Below are positions 15,038 to 21,706 of a stretch of DNA of 53,982 nucleotides, piece by piece. The DNA is taken from the NCBI GenBank assembly GCA_003141675.1, contig PLND01000053.1, positions 6,153 through 60,134 of the forward strand, read 5' to 3'. The translations under genes were made by a program, and so were the position numbers. The DNA comes from Anaerolineae bacterium (lineage in GTDB: Bacteria; Chloroflexota; Anaerolineae; Anaerolineales; RBG-16-64-43). The notes under the pieces are model-generated. The model saw only the letters and a program-made list of their open reading frames with translations, did no database searches and had not been told where the DNA came from. Within the stretch, counting starts at the first letter, position 1; every line of letters starts with the position of its first letter.

Positions 15038-16195
15038 TCATTTTAATTTAATTCGACTCGCCTTTGGCTCTTGCAGCCGGATCCTGGGAGCGGTCGATTT
15101 GTATTGGCTTTCACCCATGCTCTTGGCCGGCACCAGGGTCAGGATTTTTTGCGCTCCGGCTGGCGCGAAGAGCAGCACGATCAATGCGGCCAGCAGGCCG
15201 AAGAACAGCGGCCAGGAAGACGACGGGGAAACCGCCGCCTCCGGAACCAGGCCGCCCGGGTTGTAGGCTCCCTTGGCGGGCACGGCGAGCGTGGAATCCG
15301 AAAGTTTGACGCTCAATGCGCGGTTGAGACCGTCCCGCAACGAAGCAGGGGAAACGTAAGTGATCACGTACTCGCTCTGCAGCGCGCGCCCATACTGTTC
15401 GTACAAATTGCGCAAAGCGGTGGCGTCGTTGACGTATCCATAACTCCCGCCGGCGCGCTCGGCCAAGCTCTTCAGCGACGGTTCGTCGATACCGGCGAGG
15501 GAACTCGTTTTCTGGGTGGAATCGCCGAGGCCGATCGTGGAAATGGAGAGTCCCGGCGGGCCGATCGCGGCGACGATGCCGTCGGCGGTTTGCTTGCTGC
15601 GGTTGTCCATCCCGTCGGTGAGGACGATGATCGCCTTGCGGCCGGAGACGTCCTTGAGCAGGTCGGTTCCCTGGATCAGGGCGTCGTACATCGCCGTATC
15701 GCTCCCGGCGATCAACCCTTGGATCGCCAACTTTAATTTGTCATGATCGGCCGTCACCGGCTGCACATAGGTAATGCGCGTATTAAAGGAAAGGAGGCCG
15801 GCTTCGTCCCCGGTGCGCATCTGATCGACGTAGGCGGAGGCGGCCGATTTGGCCGAGGTCAGTTTATTGTCGTAGTTCATGCTTGCGGAAATATCCACCA
15901 CGAGCAGAGTGGTCAGGGGCACGCTGTTCCCGATACCGGTGACATCGCTGGGAGTGATCCGCTTGCTGTTTTCATAGAGTTGAATGGTATCGAGCTTGAC
16001 CGGGGCGGGTTCGCCTGAACTCTCGGTCACCGAGATGTACACCTTTACCTTCGGAAAAGCGGAAGTATCGACCTGGGTGATGTGCACCTGCAACTGGCCC
16101 GAAGCCTGGGCATGAACCGGCGCGGCGCGTAGCCCCAGGGCTGCCAGGACGAGGAACGGAAGGAAAAATCTGATTTGCGTTCTAAACCGGTCCAT
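15038..16195 (-). CDS. VWA-domain protein of the ubiquitin-like operon, exported, with cytosolic tail
   Basis: This 385-residue protein has a signal peptide (residues 1 to about 30, ending VHAQ), an Ig-like segment, and a von Willebrand A domain (about 96-275). The MIDAS metal site is intact: DISAS (D101, S103, S105), T167 in SDTAMYD, and D194 in TDGMD. A single TM helix follows at about 328-346, then a basic tail of about 39 residues that should be cytosolic. The tail ends APRIRLQEPKASRIKLK, closely matching the end of the Ubl-E2 protein. It is the last gene of the operon, 3 nt after the FHA gene. A role as external ligand-binding sensor is inferred. Confidence 0.88.
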   Translation of the reverse strand: MDRFRTQIRFFLPFLVLAALGLRAAPVHAQASGQLQVHITQVDTSAFPKVKVYISVTESSGEPAPVKLDTIQLYENSKRITPSDVTGIGNSVPLTTLLVVDISASMNYDNKLTSAKSAASAYVDQMRTGDEAGLLSFNTRITYVQPVTADHDKLKLAIQGLIAGSDTAMYDALIQGTDLLKDVSGRKAIIVLTDGMDNRSKQTADGIVAAIGPPGLSISTIGLGDSTQKTSSLAGIDEPSLKSLAERAGGSYGYVNDATALRNLYEQYGRALQSEYVITYVSPASLRDGLNRALSVKLSDSTLAVPAKGAYNPGGLVPEAAVSPSSSWPLFFGLLAALIVLLFAPAGAQKILTLVPAKSMGESQYKSTAPRIRLQEPKASRIKLK

Positions 16196-16198
16196 GCT

Positions 16199-17056
16199 TC
16201 ACCTCTTTTCGTGATAGACGAGTTCCGTATTTCCCAGCCGCAGGATTTGACGGTTGGCAAGCTGCGCCAATTCCACCCGCCGTTTGTTGACGAATGTTCC
16301 CGTCTTGCTCATATCCTTGATGGTGAAATGCGAGCCGTTACCCGTGAGCATCGCGTGTTGCGGGGCGATATCCGGGTCGGGGAAGACAATGTCGGCTTTG
16401 AGCGCATCGCTGCCGAGGATGACGCTCGGGCCCTTGGCTTTGAGGAATTTATCCAGGATGAACTCGGCTCCGCGCAGCTTGCCGCTGGCCACTTCGATCC
16501 AGGCCCGCGATAGCAGCACGACGATCAGCGCGATGAGCGCTCCGACCGACCCTCCCAGTAGCACCAAGCCCAGCGCCTTTCCCAGGAGCGGATTCTTCAG
16601 CGCGTCGCGGGCGGCTTCCAAAAAGCCTCCACCCACGATCCCGCCGAGCAAGCCTCCCAGCGCGCCCTTCCACATCTGGCTCCCGCCGGTGATCCCTTCG
16701 GCCAGGCCGATCAACCCGCCGAACACTCCCCATCCCAGGGCGCGGCCGAAAAAGCCCGCCCCCAGAATCTGAAACAGGAATTCCCCGAGCGGAAGGCCGA
16801 TGGCGCCGGCTATAAGGCCAAGGCCCGCGGCGACCGCTCCGGCCCGCAATGCGCGGGCGAAGTTCAGCGTGAAGAGGCCTTCGGTGACTCCGATGAGCAA
16901 TCCAATGCTAAGGCCGATCAGCGCGCCTACGAACACTTCGCTCAGGTAGACGCTGCCGGTGAAGGATAATCCCGCCAGGTTGCTGATCTGCCATCCCAAA
17001 AGCCCCCCGATCGCGCCCAGGATTCCATAGTTGTAAGTCCGCATTCCTCTACTCAT
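16199..17056 (-). CDS. polytopic membrane protein with C-terminal FHA domain
   Basis: This 285-residue protein has about five to six Gly-rich TM helices (between residues 10 and 183) followed by a cytosolic FHA fold (about 210-283). FHA domains normally bind phosphothreonine. Here the usual GR is GS (217-216 region, LGSDAL), the usual S-x-x-H is APQH (231-234), and NGT is TGT (252-254), so the phosphothreonine pocket looks degenerate. The start overlaps the JAMM stop by 8 nt and GGAG precedes it. A scaffold role at the membrane for the conjugation machinery is inferred. No kinase gene is nearby. Confidence 0.85.
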   Translation of the reverse strand: MSRGMRTYNYGILGAIGGLLGWQISNLAGLSFTGSVYLSEVFVGALIGLSIGLLIGVTEGLFTLNFARALRAGAVAAGLGLIAGAIGLPLGEFLFQILGAGFFGRALGWGVFGGLIGLAEGITGGSQMWKGALGGLLGGIVGGGFLEAARDALKNPLLGKALGLVLLGGSVGALIALIVVLLSRAWIEVASGKLRGAEFILDKFLKAKGPSVILGSDALKADIVFPDPDIAPQHAMLTGNGSHFTIKDMSKTGTFVNKRRVELAQLANRQILRLGNTELVYHEKR

Positions 17057-17762
17057 GGTTCTCCGCTCCTTCCGTCAATCCCTCTGGTTTTTCCAGTTCG
17101 AGGTTCTTCCAATACACAAGGCTCTTTCCGGAATTCCCGACGATCTCCAGAAATCCATGGTAGCGGTGATGGTCGAGGCTCCCGTCTTCTTCCCGCACGA
17201 AGAACCCGCCGATCTGGGTGTGCGGTTCGATGACCAGCGCCACCTGCCATGGTTCCGGAAAAAAATGTTGATGCAGCCAAAGGTCGTAATCCGAAAGGAA
17301 AACGCCCATTCTTGGGTGGGTGTGGAACCACCCGACCATGCGCTTTTCCGGATAGCGCGTCTCCTGCTCGTCGTGCAGTGCCACCAACGTATCCTGGGTG
17401 AAGGTGAGGAAAGCGCTTCCGTGCCGGGTGAACCGGGCGGGGAGCACGGCTTCCGCCACGATGAATTGCTCCCCGCTCGGATTGTCGATCCGCCATTGGC
17501 CGATAAGCGCTCCGCCCACTTCGTTGTCCATATCCTGTCCGGCCAGGGAACAGATCTGGACAAACGCGGGCTGGGTGAGGAACACCGACACCGCGGGTTT
17601 GCTCCCGTCCCGGTCGAACGGCGAGTTCCACCGCCGGACCTTCGATCGCGGGATGCGCGAGGGGCGCGGGTCCGGAGTCTCGGGCGGGCCGAGCCGGACG
17701 CGCGAAGATTCCGTTTTGGGGAATTCTTCGCCCTGTGGGAGTTCTGCATCGACCATCGGCAT
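17049..17762 (-). CDS. JAMM/MPN metallo-isopeptidase (deubiquitinase-like)
   Basis: This 237-residue protein carries a JAB/MPN domain (about 55-210). The zinc-binding JAMM signature is complete: E81 in NEVGG, and H147-x-H149-P with S157 and D160 in HTHPRMGVFLSDYD. Such enzymes cleave isopeptide or peptide bonds at the C-terminus of ubiquitin-like proteins. The N-terminal 50 residues are Pro/Arg-rich and disordered-looking, with the SSRVRL motif shared with other operon products. The start at ATG 17762 is preferred over a TTG at 17771 because AAGGG sits 8 nt ahead. It follows the free Ubl gene directly, so it is likely to process or deconjugate that Ubl. Confidence 0.92.
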   Translation of the reverse strand: MPMVDAELPQGEEFPKTESSRVRLGPPETPDPRPSRIPRSKVRRWNSPFDRDGSKPAVSVFLTQPAFVQICSLAGQDMDNEVGGALIGQWRIDNPSGEQFIVAEAVLPARFTRHGSAFLTFTQDTLVALHDEQETRYPEKRMVGWFHTHPRMGVFLSDYDLWLHQHFFPEPWQVALVIEPHTQIGGFFVREEDGSLDHHRYHGFLEIVGNSGKSLVYWKNLELEKPEGLTEGAENHE

Positions 17763-17774
17763 GACAGTCAACCC

Positions 17775-18041
17775 TTAGCCGGCGGTGACGTCGGCGGTGA
17801 GGATCAGGCGGTCGCCGGTGGGAACCGACGCGGAGGAAAGGGTTTCCTCCTCCTGCAATTCGCGCCCCAGCGCCTTGCTGTCGATGCGATAGCTCATCGG
17901 TCGGCCGTCGGGACCGGTAGTCGGCAGCTGCAGCGAGGTGGTCAATTCCGGAATGAGTTCCTTGACGACCACGTCGTTCGGAACCTCCGCGGTGCGGGAG
18001 CCGCCGGATGGTAATACTACGGTAACGGGAACGTCAGCCAT
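17775..18041 (-). CDS. free ubiquitin-like protein (YukD/EsaB-like beta-grasp)
   Basis: This 88-residue protein fills a single ubiquitin-like beta-grasp domain of the YukD-like type. It matches the N-terminal domain of the Ubl-E2 fusion at 63 of 88 positions by hand alignment without gaps. It ends in DVTAG, so a single glycine is already at the C-terminus and ready for adenylation by the E1. In the fusion the same point reads TAGG before the E2 begins. GGAGA precedes the ATG. Its place next to E2 and JAMM genes supports a role as the conjugated tag rather than a type VII secretion part; no WXG100 or EssC gene is present. Confidence 0.9.
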   Translation of the reverse strand: MADVPVTVVLPSGGSRTAEVPNDVVVKELIPELTTSLQLPTTGPDGRPMSYRIDSKALGRELQEEETLSSASVPTGDRLILTADVTAG

Positions 18042-18056
18042 TTTCTCGTCTCCTTA

Positions 18057-18317
18057 TTACGAATTGCGGATGGTGCGCGGGTTTGGGTCCTGCTTGTCTT
18101 GCGGATACGCGCTCAATTGGTCCTCGTTCTTTGTATACGGAAGAAACGGAGAAGAGCCGAAGTCACGGAAAAATTTATTGTTCTCCTTGCCCCATTTATT
18201 TCCAATCAAGGAGTTGGAGTTATCCAAAAGGAATTCTCGGTGAGTTCCGTTATTTTCGGTGCCCCCGGCCCGACCCATGCCGGGGCGGGCTTCCGTGTAC
18301 TGGTTTTTACTAGACAT
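18057..18317 (-). CDS. small Asn-rich ORF in the ubiquitin-like operon
   Basis: This 86-residue frame lies between the Ubl-E2 and free-Ubl genes with 15-19 bp on either side. A strong AAGGAGG sits 5 nt before its ATG, better than most neighbours. The product is polar, rich in Asn, Gly, Lys and Ser, with no TM helix, no Cys and no family I recognise. The underlying DNA is more AT-rich than its neighbours and shares GCCGAAGTCACGG-type sequence with the dispersed repeat at 45845-45985 (reverse orientation). It may therefore be translated repeat sequence rather than an old gene. If real, it could be a dedicated substrate or adaptor. Confidence 0.4.
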   Translation of the reverse strand: MSSKNQYTEARPGMGRAGGTENNGTHREFLLDNSNSLIGNKWGKENNKFFRDFGSSPFLPYTKNEDQLSAYPQDKQDPNPRTIRNS

Positions 18318-18336
18318 TCCTGCCTCCTTGTCCTTC

Positions 18337-19173
18337 CTACTTCAACCGGATGCGCGGGGCGGGGTTTTTTTTCAGTTTGACCCGTCCCGGCCGCAACAGT
18401 TCGCGCTCGTCCACCGGAAACGCGTGCGGATGGTCGGCCCGGTAGGCCCGGCTCCAGCGCGCGGCATCCGGATCCCAGGGGAAGGGCGGCTTGGTGGGAT
18501 CGTCGTGGAAGTTCTTGTACTGCACCATTTCGCCCAGCATGATCACCAGTCGGTCCAGCGAACGGCTGGCGGTCCACCAGGCCACGTCGATGCAAACTGT
18601 TTTGTTGAGATGGTGAATATTCGGATGCCAGATCGGGGTCAGCCATTTCAGCCCGGGCCAGCGCTGCGGATACTGGTTGTGCAGGTAGATTTCCACCTGA
18701 TGATGGCTGGAATATTTGGGCCGCCCCAGTTTGTCGATTGCGGCGATTCCCTTACATCGGTACGTGACGATGTACCGTTCCGGCGCGGGGGATCCCCTGG
18801 AATCCACAGCCTCGAAAGTAATCAGGCTGCTCTGGGCGGCCAGTTCGCGCATCAACTCGTAATCCGCGATCAACCGGCGCACGCGCGGGCTTTGGGAGAG
18901 CGCCATGCCGCCGGCGGTGATGTCCGCCGTCAGGATCAAGCGGTCGCCGGAGGGAATCTTGGCCGAGGCGAGGGTTTCGTCCTCGCGCAGCTCGCGGCCC
19001 AGCGCCTTGCTGTCCATGCGGTATCCCATCGGCCGACCATCGGGTCCGACGGTGGGCAGTTTGAGAAGCGACGTGAGCTCCGCCATCAGGTCGCGCACCG
19101 GCGCGTCGTCGGGTACGTCGGCGGTGCGGGCGCCGCCGCTGGGCAAAACGATGGTCACGGATAGATCAGCCAT
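18337..19173 (-). CDS. ubiquitin-like domain fused to E2 conjugating enzyme
   Basis: This 278-residue protein has an N-terminal YukD-like Ubl (1-88) ending TADITAGG, then an E2/UBC fold (about 95-245). The E2 core shows the canonical order: a P-rich strand (YPQRWPGLKWLTPIW), the HPN triad (H183-P184-N185), and the catalytic cysteine C194 in KTVCIDVAWW with the following tryptophans. A basic tail ends GRVKLKKNPAPRIRLK. It should accept activated Ubl from the E1 as a thioester and pass it to substrate. The GG junction could be cut by the JAMM to release a second Ubl, or the fused domain could regulate the E2. AAGGAG precedes the ATG. Confidence 0.93.
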   Translation of the reverse strand: MADLSVTIVLPSGGARTADVPDDAPVRDLMAELTSLLKLPTVGPDGRPMGYRMDSKALGRELREDETLASAKIPSGDRLILTADITAGGMALSQSPRVRRLIADYELMRELAAQSSLITFEAVDSRGSPAPERYIVTYRCKGIAAIDKLGRPKYSSHHQVEIYLHNQYPQRWPGLKWLTPIWHPNIHHLNKTVCIDVAWWTASRSLDRLVIMLGEMVQYKNFHDDPTKPPFPWDPDAARWSRAYRADHPHAFPVDERELLRPGRVKLKKNPAPRIRLK

Positions 19174-19235: not shown

Positions 19236-19970
19236 TCAGGTGTGATAATGCGGAACCTGGCACATTCCGGTGATATCCCAGCAATCCTTGTGGTGGCGGG
19301 TGTGGCAGATCGGGCACACGACCACTCCGCGCGGATCCCTCGCCTCGATCGGTTGCAGGCAGTAGGGGCATTTGTATTTCTCGGCCCCGGTCAGGCGGAT
19401 CTCGGCATCGGGCCGCGCCCTTTGGAAGAACCGCAGTACGCCGCCGAAGCGATTGCGGGATGGGCGCGCGTCCTTTGCCGGCGCAGTGGCTTTAATTTTC
19501 TTTTCCAGTGCGGCGGATGGCTGCGGTTCCCCCAGAACCTCTCCGGCTGGTGCGGGGGCGGCGCGTTTCCTCCAGGCAACGAGGGCGAGCGCGGATGTGG
19601 CGGCGCCGATCGCCATCAATCCCAACGCCCCCCAATCCGGACGTCTCTCCGCGGGGAGGGTGGGATCGGCGCCGACCAGTCCCTGGGTCAGCCAACCCAT
19701 GATCAACAAGCTCAGCAATGTGGCGGTGATCGCGGCGGTTAATCGCAGCGGAAACGAAAACCGGCGAAAGAAAAGACGGGAGACGAACCCCAGGAAGATG
19801 CCTGCTCCCGCAGCGGCCGCGATTGCATAAACCCACGGCAAGATTGTGTCGTTGACCACCCCGGCAACCGCGAACCCCGCCGCCGTGAAACAAGCCAGCA
19901 GCGCCAGAAGTTCCAATCGGAACAGCAGCAGAAACAATCTCGGTGAGGAGTAAGGCTGGGAACCGCTCAC
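19236..19970 (-). CDS. four-TM protein with C-terminal RING-like zinc domain (candidate E3)
   Basis: This 244-residue protein has four TM helices (about 12-38, 44-64, 74-96, 113-133), a flexible Ala/Pro/Lys-rich linker, and a compact C-terminal zinc module (201-243). The ligands fit a binuclear treble-clef/RING: C201-x2-C204, C219-x2-C222, H226 or H227 and C230, C237 and H241 or H243. The segment CPICHTRHHKDCW is typical of the prokaryotic RING family 1. The gene starts with GTG overlapping the E1 stop (GTGA), so the two are coupled. A membrane-bound E3 that holds the E2 is inferred; a pure structural zinc ribbon is possible. Confidence 0.85.
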   Translation of the reverse strand: MSGSQPYSSPRLFLLLFRLELLALLACFTAAGFAVAGVVNDTILPWVYAIAAAAGAGIFLGFVSRLFFRRFSFPLRLTAAITATLLSLLIMGWLTQGLVGADPTLPAERRPDWGALGLMAIGAATSALALVAWRKRAAPAPAGEVLGEPQPSAALEKKIKATAPAKDARPSRNRFGGVLRFFQRARPDAEIRLTGAEKYKCPYCLQPIEARDPRGVVVCPICHTRHHKDCWDITGMCQVPHYHT

Positions 19971-21640
19971 GGCACACTCTCGTCCGGTGCCGTTTTTTCG
20001 TCGTGTAGAACGATCCGTCCGGCCGCCGGGCCCTTGTCTCCCTCATCCGGTTCCACGGCTTCCCCCAGGGAGATGCGTTCACGCAGCGGGATGGCAGAAA
20101 CGGCTTCCGGATTTTCGAAATGCCGGAAGTGCAGCGTCTCGGAAAGATCGCCGGTTAATTCGTAGAACCGAAACTCGCTTGAGTTGCGGGCGCGCAGAAT
20201 GTGAAGGGGGGGCACGCCCACGCTGGAAAGCGTCCGCTCCAGGAAGGTCTCGTCGCCGCGGATCTCGTGTGTCAGCTCGATTTCGCGCAGCAGGCCGCAG
20301 GACGGACAGTGGCCGGCTTCGAAGGTCACCGCTTCGAGCGGACGCAAGACCTCCTCGCGGGTGTGGCAACTCGGGCAGGTGAGAGAGAGGATCAATTCCT
20401 GATCCAGTTCGATCACGGCGTCGGACCCCAGATCCTGGCGCACCAGGCGCAACATCTCGGAGAGGGTTGTGCGGGAAGCACGCGCCGGAAGCTCGATCAC
20501 CTCGCCGTAGACCCAGTGGCTCTCGCAATCCTCGCGCGGGACATAGGCGCTGGTGTGCATCTCGTTGGTCAATCCGTTGAAATGCACAACCTTGCCTGCT
20601 TCCACCGGCATCCCGTGGATCAGCTTGAGCGCTTCCTGAGCCTGCATGCCGCCGATGATCGACGCGATCGTGGGAGTGGTCGGGACTTTTCCCAGGAGGA
20701 TGTTTTGCCGAGCCAGCAGCGGGCAGGAATAGCGCAGGGAAAGATCGCGCCGCGCCTGCTCGGTGAGCGTGCATTCGAAACAGGCTCCGCGGCCGGGGAC
20801 GAACGTGCGCACCAGTCCCAGCAACTCCTGGATGGCGCCGTCGACCCACGGCTTGTTCATCCAATAGCAGAAGCGGTTCAACGCCAGCCGGGCTTCGCGG
20901 TTATCGAGGCATCCGATCACGGCGTCCATGCGCCGGATGATTCCCAGGCCCAGCTGGGTGGTCACGTCCCCATCGAGGTATTGGACGTGCACATGTGGAT
21001 TGAGGCTCCTGGCGCGCGAGGCGACAACCTGGGCTTTGCTGCGTTTGGTATCCCCCTCGCGGAAGAGCACCGAGCGACTGAGGTTGGCCGCCTCGACCGT
21101 ATCGAAATCGACGATAAAAAGGTGTCCGATACCCATCAGGGCGAGGTTCTTGATCACTTCGTTGCCGAGCGCGCCCGCGCCCACCACCATCACATTGGCG
21201 TCCCGGACCTTGTCCTTCTCCCACCAGGAAATGAATTCGAAAGTTCCCAGCCGGTCCGTTTGCAGATTGGGAACGTGGAGCGGTTTTTCCGAGCTAGCGG
21301 GGAGGCGGTGCGGGCCGCTCGGGGTTTCTCCGCCGGGCGGGGTTTTTTCCGCGCCAAGCTGCCGGTAGGCGCCGGCCAGGTCGCGGGCCGCCGCGAGATT
21401 GTCGGCGTCCAGTTTGCACGCGAACCATCCCACGCCGGCCCGGGCTTCGATCAGACCGTTTTCTTCCATAGCCTTGAGCGCCTCGCGTAGCGTGGCGCGG
21501 CTGATATCCAGTTGCTGGATCAACTCCCTTTCGGAGGGGAGTTGTTCACCGGCCTTAATCGATCCATCGAGCACAGAGCCCGACAGACGCCCGGCGACAG
21601 CCTGTGATAATGACACGTGTCCGATCGGTAATATCTTCAT
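19967..21640 (-). CDS. GntR winged-helix fused to E1-like ubiquitin-activating enzyme (ThiF/UBA)
   Basis: This 557-residue protein opens with a GntR winged helix (about 3-75; QLPSERELIQQLDISRATLR, GLIEARAGVGWF), replacing the usual small-molecule effector domain by an E1. The adenylation domain (about 148-345) has the nucleotide loop VVGAGALGN, the acidic strand end IVDFDTVEAANLSRSVLF and the CLDNREAR segment. Candidate catalytic cysteine is C306 in RYSCPL; C287/C290 (CFEC) and the CPSC pairs at 422-425 and 445-448 look like zinc ligands. The ATG at 21640 is preferred over a TTG at 21706 because the TTG lies in the -35 box. It is the first gene of the operon and probably represses it. Confidence 0.92.
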   Translation of the reverse strand: MKILPIGHVSLSQAVAGRLSGSVLDGSIKAGEQLPSERELIQQLDISRATLREALKAMEENGLIEARAGVGWFACKLDADNLAAARDLAGAYRQLGAEKTPPGGETPSGPHRLPASSEKPLHVPNLQTDRLGTFEFISWWEKDKVRDANVMVVGAGALGNEVIKNLALMGIGHLFIVDFDTVEAANLSRSVLFREGDTKRSKAQVVASRARSLNPHVHVQYLDGDVTTQLGLGIIRRMDAVIGCLDNREARLALNRFCYWMNKPWVDGAIQELLGLVRTFVPGRGACFECTLTEQARRDLSLRYSCPLLARQNILLGKVPTTPTIASIIGGMQAQEALKLIHGMPVEAGKVVHFNGLTNEMHTSAYVPREDCESHWVYGEVIELPARASRTTLSEMLRLVRQDLGSDAVIELDQELILSLTCPSCHTREEVLRPLEAVTFEAGHCPSCGLLREIELTHEIRGDETFLERTLSSVGVPPLHILRARNSSEFRFYELTGDLSETLHFRHFENPEAVSAIPLRERISLGEAVEPDEGDKGPAAGRIVLHDEKTAPDESVP

Positions 21641-21649
21641 AGGTTGGCT

Positions 21650-21674
21650 GGTATGCTGGTCAGACCAGTATACC
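21650..21674. promoter_or_regulatory. 25-bp palindromic operator with FadR/GntR-type core
   Basis: The site has core CTGGTCAGACCAG (21656-21668) extended by GGTAT/ATACC arms. Apart from the centre, only one symmetric pair mismatches. The TGGT-N3-ACCA core matches the FadR-subfamily GntR consensus. It covers the predicted transcription start of the E1 gene and ends 10 bp before its ATG, the expected place for autorepression by the winged helix of the E1. Confidence 0.8.
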
Positions 21675-21678
21675 AACA

Positions 21679-21706
21679 ATTCTAAAAGGTTTTTAAGGCT
21701 TGTCAA
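21679..21706 (-). promoter_or_regulatory. sigma-70-type promoter of the ubiquitin-like operon
   Basis: On the minus strand TTGACA (21706-21701) is followed after 16 nt by TAGAAT (21684-21679). The predicted start falls near 21672, inside the palindromic operator. Both hexamers are near consensus, so the operon should be strong when not repressed. Confidence 0.75.

Follow-up and report, generated by a model that had tools for sequence, protein, structure and literature searches.

Gene content of the conjugation operon

The window (the whole stretch of DNA analysed, 53,982 nucleotides of an Anaerolineae genome) carries an operon on its minus strand, on which all features given below lie. Its genes are transcribed in the order GntR-E1, TM-RING (Prok-RING_1), Ubl-E2, free Ubl, JAMM, TM-FHA, and VWA. 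The first gene (19967..21706) encodes an E1-like activating enzyme with a GntR winged helix at residues 33–95 (Pfam GntR, 61 bits) and a ThiF/E1 domain at residues 161–394 (ThiF, 191 bits), and its nearest solved relatives are UBA7 and UBA1. Cysteines 309/312, 328, 444/447, and 467/470, of which the last two sets are further CxxC pairs, are conserved among 61 relatives; the adenylation domain, together with the invariant C309/C312 and C328, leads us to predict an E1 that forms a thioester with the Ubl. A match covers the GntR domain in 59 of 69 relatives and also in genome G070, and the domain is absent from the outgroup E1s; its presence suggests that the E1 may also bind DNA, perhaps at its own promoter.

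The second gene (19236..19970) encodes a membrane-anchored Prok-RING_1 protein (PF14446, 36.9 bits, above the cut-off). Its zinc ligands (C201, C204, C219, C222, H226, H227, C230, C237, and H241) are invariant in 69 relatives and account for two zinc sites, as in a RING, so that the protein is a predicted E3. Next comes the Ubl-E2 fusion (18337..19173; 278 aa), which matches YukD with 42.3 bits and, over the remainder of the protein, UQ_con with 34.5 bits (Pfam cut-off 27). The E2 catalytic domain (18340..18888) begins at helix 1 (residue 96) and ends in the basic tail PRIRLK. Both the HPN motif (H183, P184, N185) and the catalytic Cys194 are invariant in 55 orthologues, so that by sequence the protein has the profile, the HPN motif, and the cysteine of an active E2, and the genome contains no second UQ_con match.

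Downstream of the free Ubl (17775..18041; 88 aa) lies a JAMM/MPN metalloprotease (17049..17771; Pfam JAB, 31.8 bits), a candidate for both processing and deconjugation. Its E84, H150, H152, S160, and D163, which make up the E...HxHx7SxxD motif, are invariant in 67 relatives, and its nearest solved relatives are AMSH and Rpn11 of Caldiarchaeum subterraneum. The last two genes encode a multipass membrane protein with a C-terminal FHA domain (16199..17056; FHA, 48.2 bits) and a VWA protein with a C-terminal TM segment and an RIKLK tail (15038..16195; VWA_2, 54.1 bits). Both are syntenic across relatives; we know of no FHA or VWA partners in the Caldiarchaeum operon. No proteasome subunit was found in the genome.

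Purine-rich sites of the AAGGAG type precede both the free Ubl and the Ubl-E2 ORFs. The gap between these two genes is unusually long and contains an ORF of 86 aa (18057..18317) that has no Pfam or PADLOC match and no counterpart in any relative, and is probably not a gene. As the corresponding gap of 271 nt in locus L003 lacks this ORF, the free Ubl may have its promoter or a leader in this gap.

We also observed that a C-terminal tail of the form [RK][IV][RK]L is common to relatives of the E1 (35/69), the E2 (46/71), and the VWA protein (44/59), against a background of 2/487 in flanking ORFs, and that similar IxL stretches occur before the RING zinc site and near the JAMM N-terminus. This tail may be a docking motif shared by these proteins, with the Ubl as a potential partner. 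In 12–19 loci (L009, L010, L013–L015, and others) the operon is flanked by genes that, inspected by eye, resemble those for ribosomal L1/L10, NusG, and a LexA-like repressor, which suggests a location in the core chromosome rather than in a defence island.

Sequence and history of the free and fused Ubl

The initial annotation described the free Ubl and the N-terminal domain of the Ubl-E2 (residues 1–88; 18910..19173) as near-identical. The underlying count of 63 identical residues out of 88 in an ungapped alignment was correct, as were the coordinates and strand, but the wording is too strong for 72% identity. The two copies align with a BLOSUM62 score of 339, against a mean of 31 (SD 5.5, maximum 63) for 1000 shuffles. 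Their DNA is also 72% identical, falling to 51% at third codon positions, with dN of 0.20 and dS of 0.95. Such low third-position identity indicates an old duplication rather than a copy made in assembly.

Both copies match Pfam YukD (PF08817; 48.8 bits for the free and 42.3 bits for the fused Ubl, cut-off 27). In a Foldseek comparison the AlphaFold model of the fused Ubl matched ubiquitin with a TM-score of about 0.8; the free Ubl, used alone as a query against the PDB, gave no match. The fused copy retains the conserved face of the family (P11, G13, R16, GPDGR, Y51R52, and DSKALG). As first described, the free ORF stops directly after Thr-Ala-Gly (ACC GCC GGC TAA), and the fused ORF reads on into TAGGM (ACC GCC GGC GGC ATG).

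A comparison of Ubl copy number and C-termini across orthologous loci, as proposed in the initial annotation, showed that the arrangement recurs. More than 70 Anaerolineae genomes retain the operon, and almost all of them have the two Ubl copies. Scanning species genomes yielded 75 loci (E-values of related loci are relative to the candidates), of which 72 (L003–L074) are the same operon from Anaerolineales and near relatives, in a sample that consists mostly of MAGs and in which species counts are non-independent events. One of the loci, L050, belongs to a cultured species, Pelolinea submarina. Where one of these 72 loci lacks either Ubl, a contig end or, in one case, a broken ORF explains it. 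We found no genome that carries the fused copy alone, a configuration that would prove release; L005, L006, and L070 just run off contig ends. In the remaining three loci (L075–L077), which are outgroups, an E1 is present, the Ubl is single and free, and the E2 is not fused. A second fused lineage (G529, G547, G580, G606, G642, G654, G711, and G718) and further lineages with an unfused E2 emerged from scans of relatives, of the phylum, and of the class. In the second fused lineage two JAMM proteins follow the free Ubl in tandem (L163–L167, L169, and L057).

The most informative relative is genome G070, whose operon is the same, with the GntR-E1, except that the E2 is unfused and there is a single Ubl, which ends in TAG. 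The E2 tree places G070 immediately outside the fused clade, at moderate support (93/52). In the Ubl tree the fused Ubls form one clade (100/82) with the free copies outside, a split that was weaker in a smaller Ubl sample including G070. Gene conversion or assembly duplication of the Ubl copies is ruled out by the saturation of synonymous sites and the monophyly of the fused clade. The simplest history is that a single Ubl was duplicated, one copy became fused to the E2, and both were then long retained.

A fusion of this kind could arise easily by chance read-through: in L158 (G691) the Ubl and the E2 are separate, adjacent genes about 20 nt apart. That the fusion is a mere relic of such an event, with no special role, is nevertheless hardly credible, since all complete relatives (81 distinct proteins) have preserved the Ubl fold under purifying selection, and short of a functional null result this conservation refutes it. 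Loss of the fused Ubl fold in orthologues, which would have counted against the initial proposal, was thus seen in none of the complete relatives.

The Thr-Ala-Gly junction and possible fates of the fused Ubl

The initial annotation had placed the junction at a Gly-Gly, with possible release by the JAMM. The second glycine proved not to be a feature of the junction. Residues T86-A87-G88 are invariant in 81 of 81 distinct fused proteins, preceded by Ile or Val at residue 85; residue 89 is Ala in 51, Gly in 20, Ser in nine, and Lys in one, and the tree requires 19 or more changes at this site. The sequence TAGG, found in 20/81 proteins only, does not place the fusion among di-glycine Ubl precursors. 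Since residue 89 varies in this way, we redrew the proposed cut site as TAG|X, after Gly88 (junction T86-A87-G88/G89; 18907..18918).

The body of the fused Ubl diverges faster than that of the free Ubl (mean pairwise identity 0.739 vs 0.798, with the fused copy lower in 85% of genome pairs), yet its tail is more conserved: residues 85–88 score 0.993 in the fused and 0.892 in the free copy, and the fused linker at residues 89–94, at 0.212, is almost without constraint. Synonymous sites are saturated, and the TAG codons vary at their third positions no less than other codons do, which speaks for purifying selection and not for a recent origin. In most relatives 7–11 residues link Gly88 to helix 1 of the E2. 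The AlphaFold model of the Ubl-E2, built with 55 orthologues, shows two mostly confident domains (pTM 0.61), which match ubiquitin and E2 structures, respectively, and pLDDT falls below 50 exactly at residues 86–90. Instead of the buried junction that would have spoken against release, the model therefore predicts a flexible one. In Chloroflexota, the YukD domains of genes outside conjugation operons lack a terminal TAG, whether they are fused or free. The YukD fold thus does not need these residues, and the tail is kept for its role as a Ubl C-terminus. An ancient fused copy with an invariant Thr-Ala-Gly tail suggests that the fusion is meant for cutting or recognition at this point. The most economical reason to keep it would be an enzyme that reads a flexible, exact Ubl C-terminus, and the JAMM is the obvious candidate. 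We also considered an internal restart at ATG codon 91 as a source of free E2, and rejected it because residue 90 is Met in just 10/81 proteins and a Met is not conserved there.

The free Ubl has the exposed C-terminal glycine of a conjugatable Ubl, and the view that it is made mature stands, given that 66 of 67 distinct free Ubls stop exactly at TAG, the sole exception ending TAG-GR. Together with this one (L008/L081), we found three natural pro-Ubls in the family, the other two being TAG-RQL (L158, G691) and TAG-QGRRA (L175, G615). Their extra residues imply that trimming after TAG occurs within the family.

On these grounds our preferred reading, which we regard as an even proposition, is that the fused Ubl is a precursor copy, cut by the JAMM after Gly88, and the free Ubl the ready tag. 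The free Ubl, translated with Gly88 at its C-terminus, would be the tag activated by the E1, and a second Ubl would be carried as a precursor at the N-terminus of the only E2 of the cell, with its recognition face and T-A-G tail intact. Cleavage after Gly88 by the JAMM of the operon would yield a second mature Ubl, which might then be conjugated, and an E2 starting with Ala, Gly, or Ser, as the E2 of unfused relatives would after Met removal. In this way one translation event would supply tag and carrier together, as in ubiquitin-ribosomal protein precursors. The precursor reading draws on the invariance of TAG beside a residue 89 that changes at least 19 times, the conserved tail on a faster-diverging body, the diverse third positions of the TAG codons, the low pLDDT of the junction, the lack of TAG in YukD domains outside conjugation, the three pro-Ubls, and the invariant catalytic residues of the JAMM.

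Studies of CsRpn11 provide a biochemical parallel. This enzyme cuts linear fusions after the C-terminal Gly of Ub and matures pro-Ub; it accepts Ala at P1, favours small over bulky residues at P1', and may fail on a tightly folded partner when no short linker precedes it (PMC6043591). The fused proteins fit such preferences, with Ala, Gly, or Ser at P1' in 80/81 and mostly 7–11 linker residues, and the operon JAMM can probably cut the Ubl-E2 after Gly88. On the other side, Arg or Gln after TAG in the pro-Ubls weakens the argument that a small P1' was kept for cleavage. As the JAMM also occurs in relatives with a single mature Ubl, processing is not its sole job, and deconjugation would be enough to account for it. 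A second source of tag moreover looks redundant beside a free Ubl in the same operon unless the copies differ functionally, and all these conclusions come from sequence and predicted structure.

A conserved internal tail may also serve binding in cis, and as the main rival we take seriously, if tentatively, the possibility that the fused Ubl is never cut and remains a permanent domain of the E2, acting like non-covalent backside ubiquitin or as a docking hub. Such a domain would bind the E1, the RING protein, the JAMM, or charged E2 and raise processivity or local concentration, and TAG would be part of its binding surface. The fused clade has conserved choices of its own (R27, V42, and I85, among others), as expected for a separate function; it shows no gene conversion with the free copy, and the fusion was never lost in the clade, contig ends and one broken ORF aside. 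By analogy, the [RK][IV][RK]L tails could bind a groove of the Ubl as SIMs bind SUMO. A binding role by itself would not, however, lead one to expect an invariant and unstructured TAG precisely where the old C-terminus lay, with a variable residue directly after it. The idea that A15 and L36 give the fused copy a hydrophobic interface of its own is unsupported, because the single Ubl of G070 has both residues, which are thus probably ancestral.

An N-terminal Ubl that keeps the E2 inactive or mislocalised until the JAMM cuts would share the sequence evidence for a precursor, including the presence of JAMM and Ubl-E2 in one operon in nearly all relatives. Such a proenzyme switch is unlikely, as nothing points to inhibition of the E2, and the linker of 7–11 residues with its low predicted confidence speaks against tight packing. 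Only slightly less doubtful is the combined proposal that JAMM cleavage releases a second tag with a function of its own and at the same time activates the E2, in which case a deubiquitinase-type enzyme would start the pathway and not merely reverse it.

The suggestion that the fused Ubl is a decoy for the E1 fared poorly. A decoy or inhibitor would occupy the E1 without being activated, and the conserved face kept on the fused copy is compatible with this. E1 adenylation requires a free C-terminal carboxylate, which the fused Ubl has only if it is cut; the 190 residues of E2 after Gly88 should not pass the adenylation channel, and a decoy would not need TAG. We consider this explanation very improbable.

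The locus offers a tag-enzyme fusion that occurs naturally within a pared-down, eukaryote-like bacterial conjugation pathway, in which a single E2 has one JAMM encoded next to it, and unfused relatives with a single Ubl serve as controls. Two questions become testable: whether Ub-fusion precursors and their maturation by DUBs exist outside eukaryotes, and whether an E2 can be supplied or switched by releasing its own tag. The invariant TAG also provides a simple marker that separates conjugated from non-conjugated YukD proteins.

Relation to known systems and further arrangements

Burroughs, Iyer and Aravind reportedly predicted in 2011 prokaryotic RING/E2/E1/JAB systems with YukD-like Ubls. 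With its YukD-like Ubl, E1, E2 with HPN and Cys, Prok-RING_1, and JAB, the locus most probably belongs to these Prok-RING_1/YukD systems, and the type of system is therefore not new; what is worked out here is the TAG junction and its comparative history. In eukaryotes ubiquitin is made in part as ribosomal protein precursors (UBA52 and RPS27A). As proposed here, they carry the tag at the N-terminus of a protein and release it after its C-terminal Gly, but in our case the partner is the E2 of the pathway itself and the tag is of the YukD type with a single-Gly end. YukD/EsaB of type VII secretion belongs to the same Pfam family (PF08817); judged by the WXG100 genes, which together with EssC/YukB mark the neighbourhood of that class, our locus falls outside it, as the genome has its WXG100 pair on a different contig.

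In bacteria, the joining of Ubl and E2-like domains within a single polypeptide is already known from type 6e operons, in which a polyUbl is fused to an inactive E2-like domain (PMC1779556, Table 1). In contrast to those tandem Ubls on an inactive E2, the fusion described here has one YukD-type Ubl, an E2 with intact HPN and Cys194, a separate free copy, and a different operon, and the invariance of the E2 catalytic residues excludes it from the 6e class. The Ub/E1/E2/RING/Rpn11 operon of Caldiarchaeum subterraneum, whose JAMM matures pro-Ub and cuts linear Ub fusions (PMC5654768, PMC6043591), shares the E1-E2-RING-JAMM cascade, deduced here from the genes; however, it is archaeal, has one Ub with Gly-Gly and a C-terminal extension of nine residues, and has no Ubl-E2 fusion. 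The ISG15-like anti-phage operon BilABCD also combines Ubl, E1, E2, and JAB, with the JAB processing the Ubl (PMC11354881), but BilA has two Ubl domains, BilB has a CEHH E2 site, and there is no RING. PADLOC found no BilA, BilB, or BilC match at the locus and just a weak match of the E1 to BilD, and with its HPN-Cys-type E2 the operon is not a member of this group. In the open-access literature we found no report of a long-conserved Ubl fusion to a catalytically intact E2 beside a free copy, and the conserved fusion to such an E2 is, so far as we found, new within a type of system already known.

Finally, two further arrangements were observed. Distant sister operons in L076, L077, L133, and L134 have an E1 without GntR, a single Ubl ending in TAG, and an unfused E2, and also encode two JAMM proteins, one of which in L076 has a likely membrane segment, and RING-like proteins. 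In L176:75-746 (G478), whose 5' end is missing at the contig edge, the order of the fusion is reversed: the E2-like domain comes first and the YukD-type Ubl last, with ...EAMAG-stop as its end, so that the glycine of the tag is the C-terminus of the E2.
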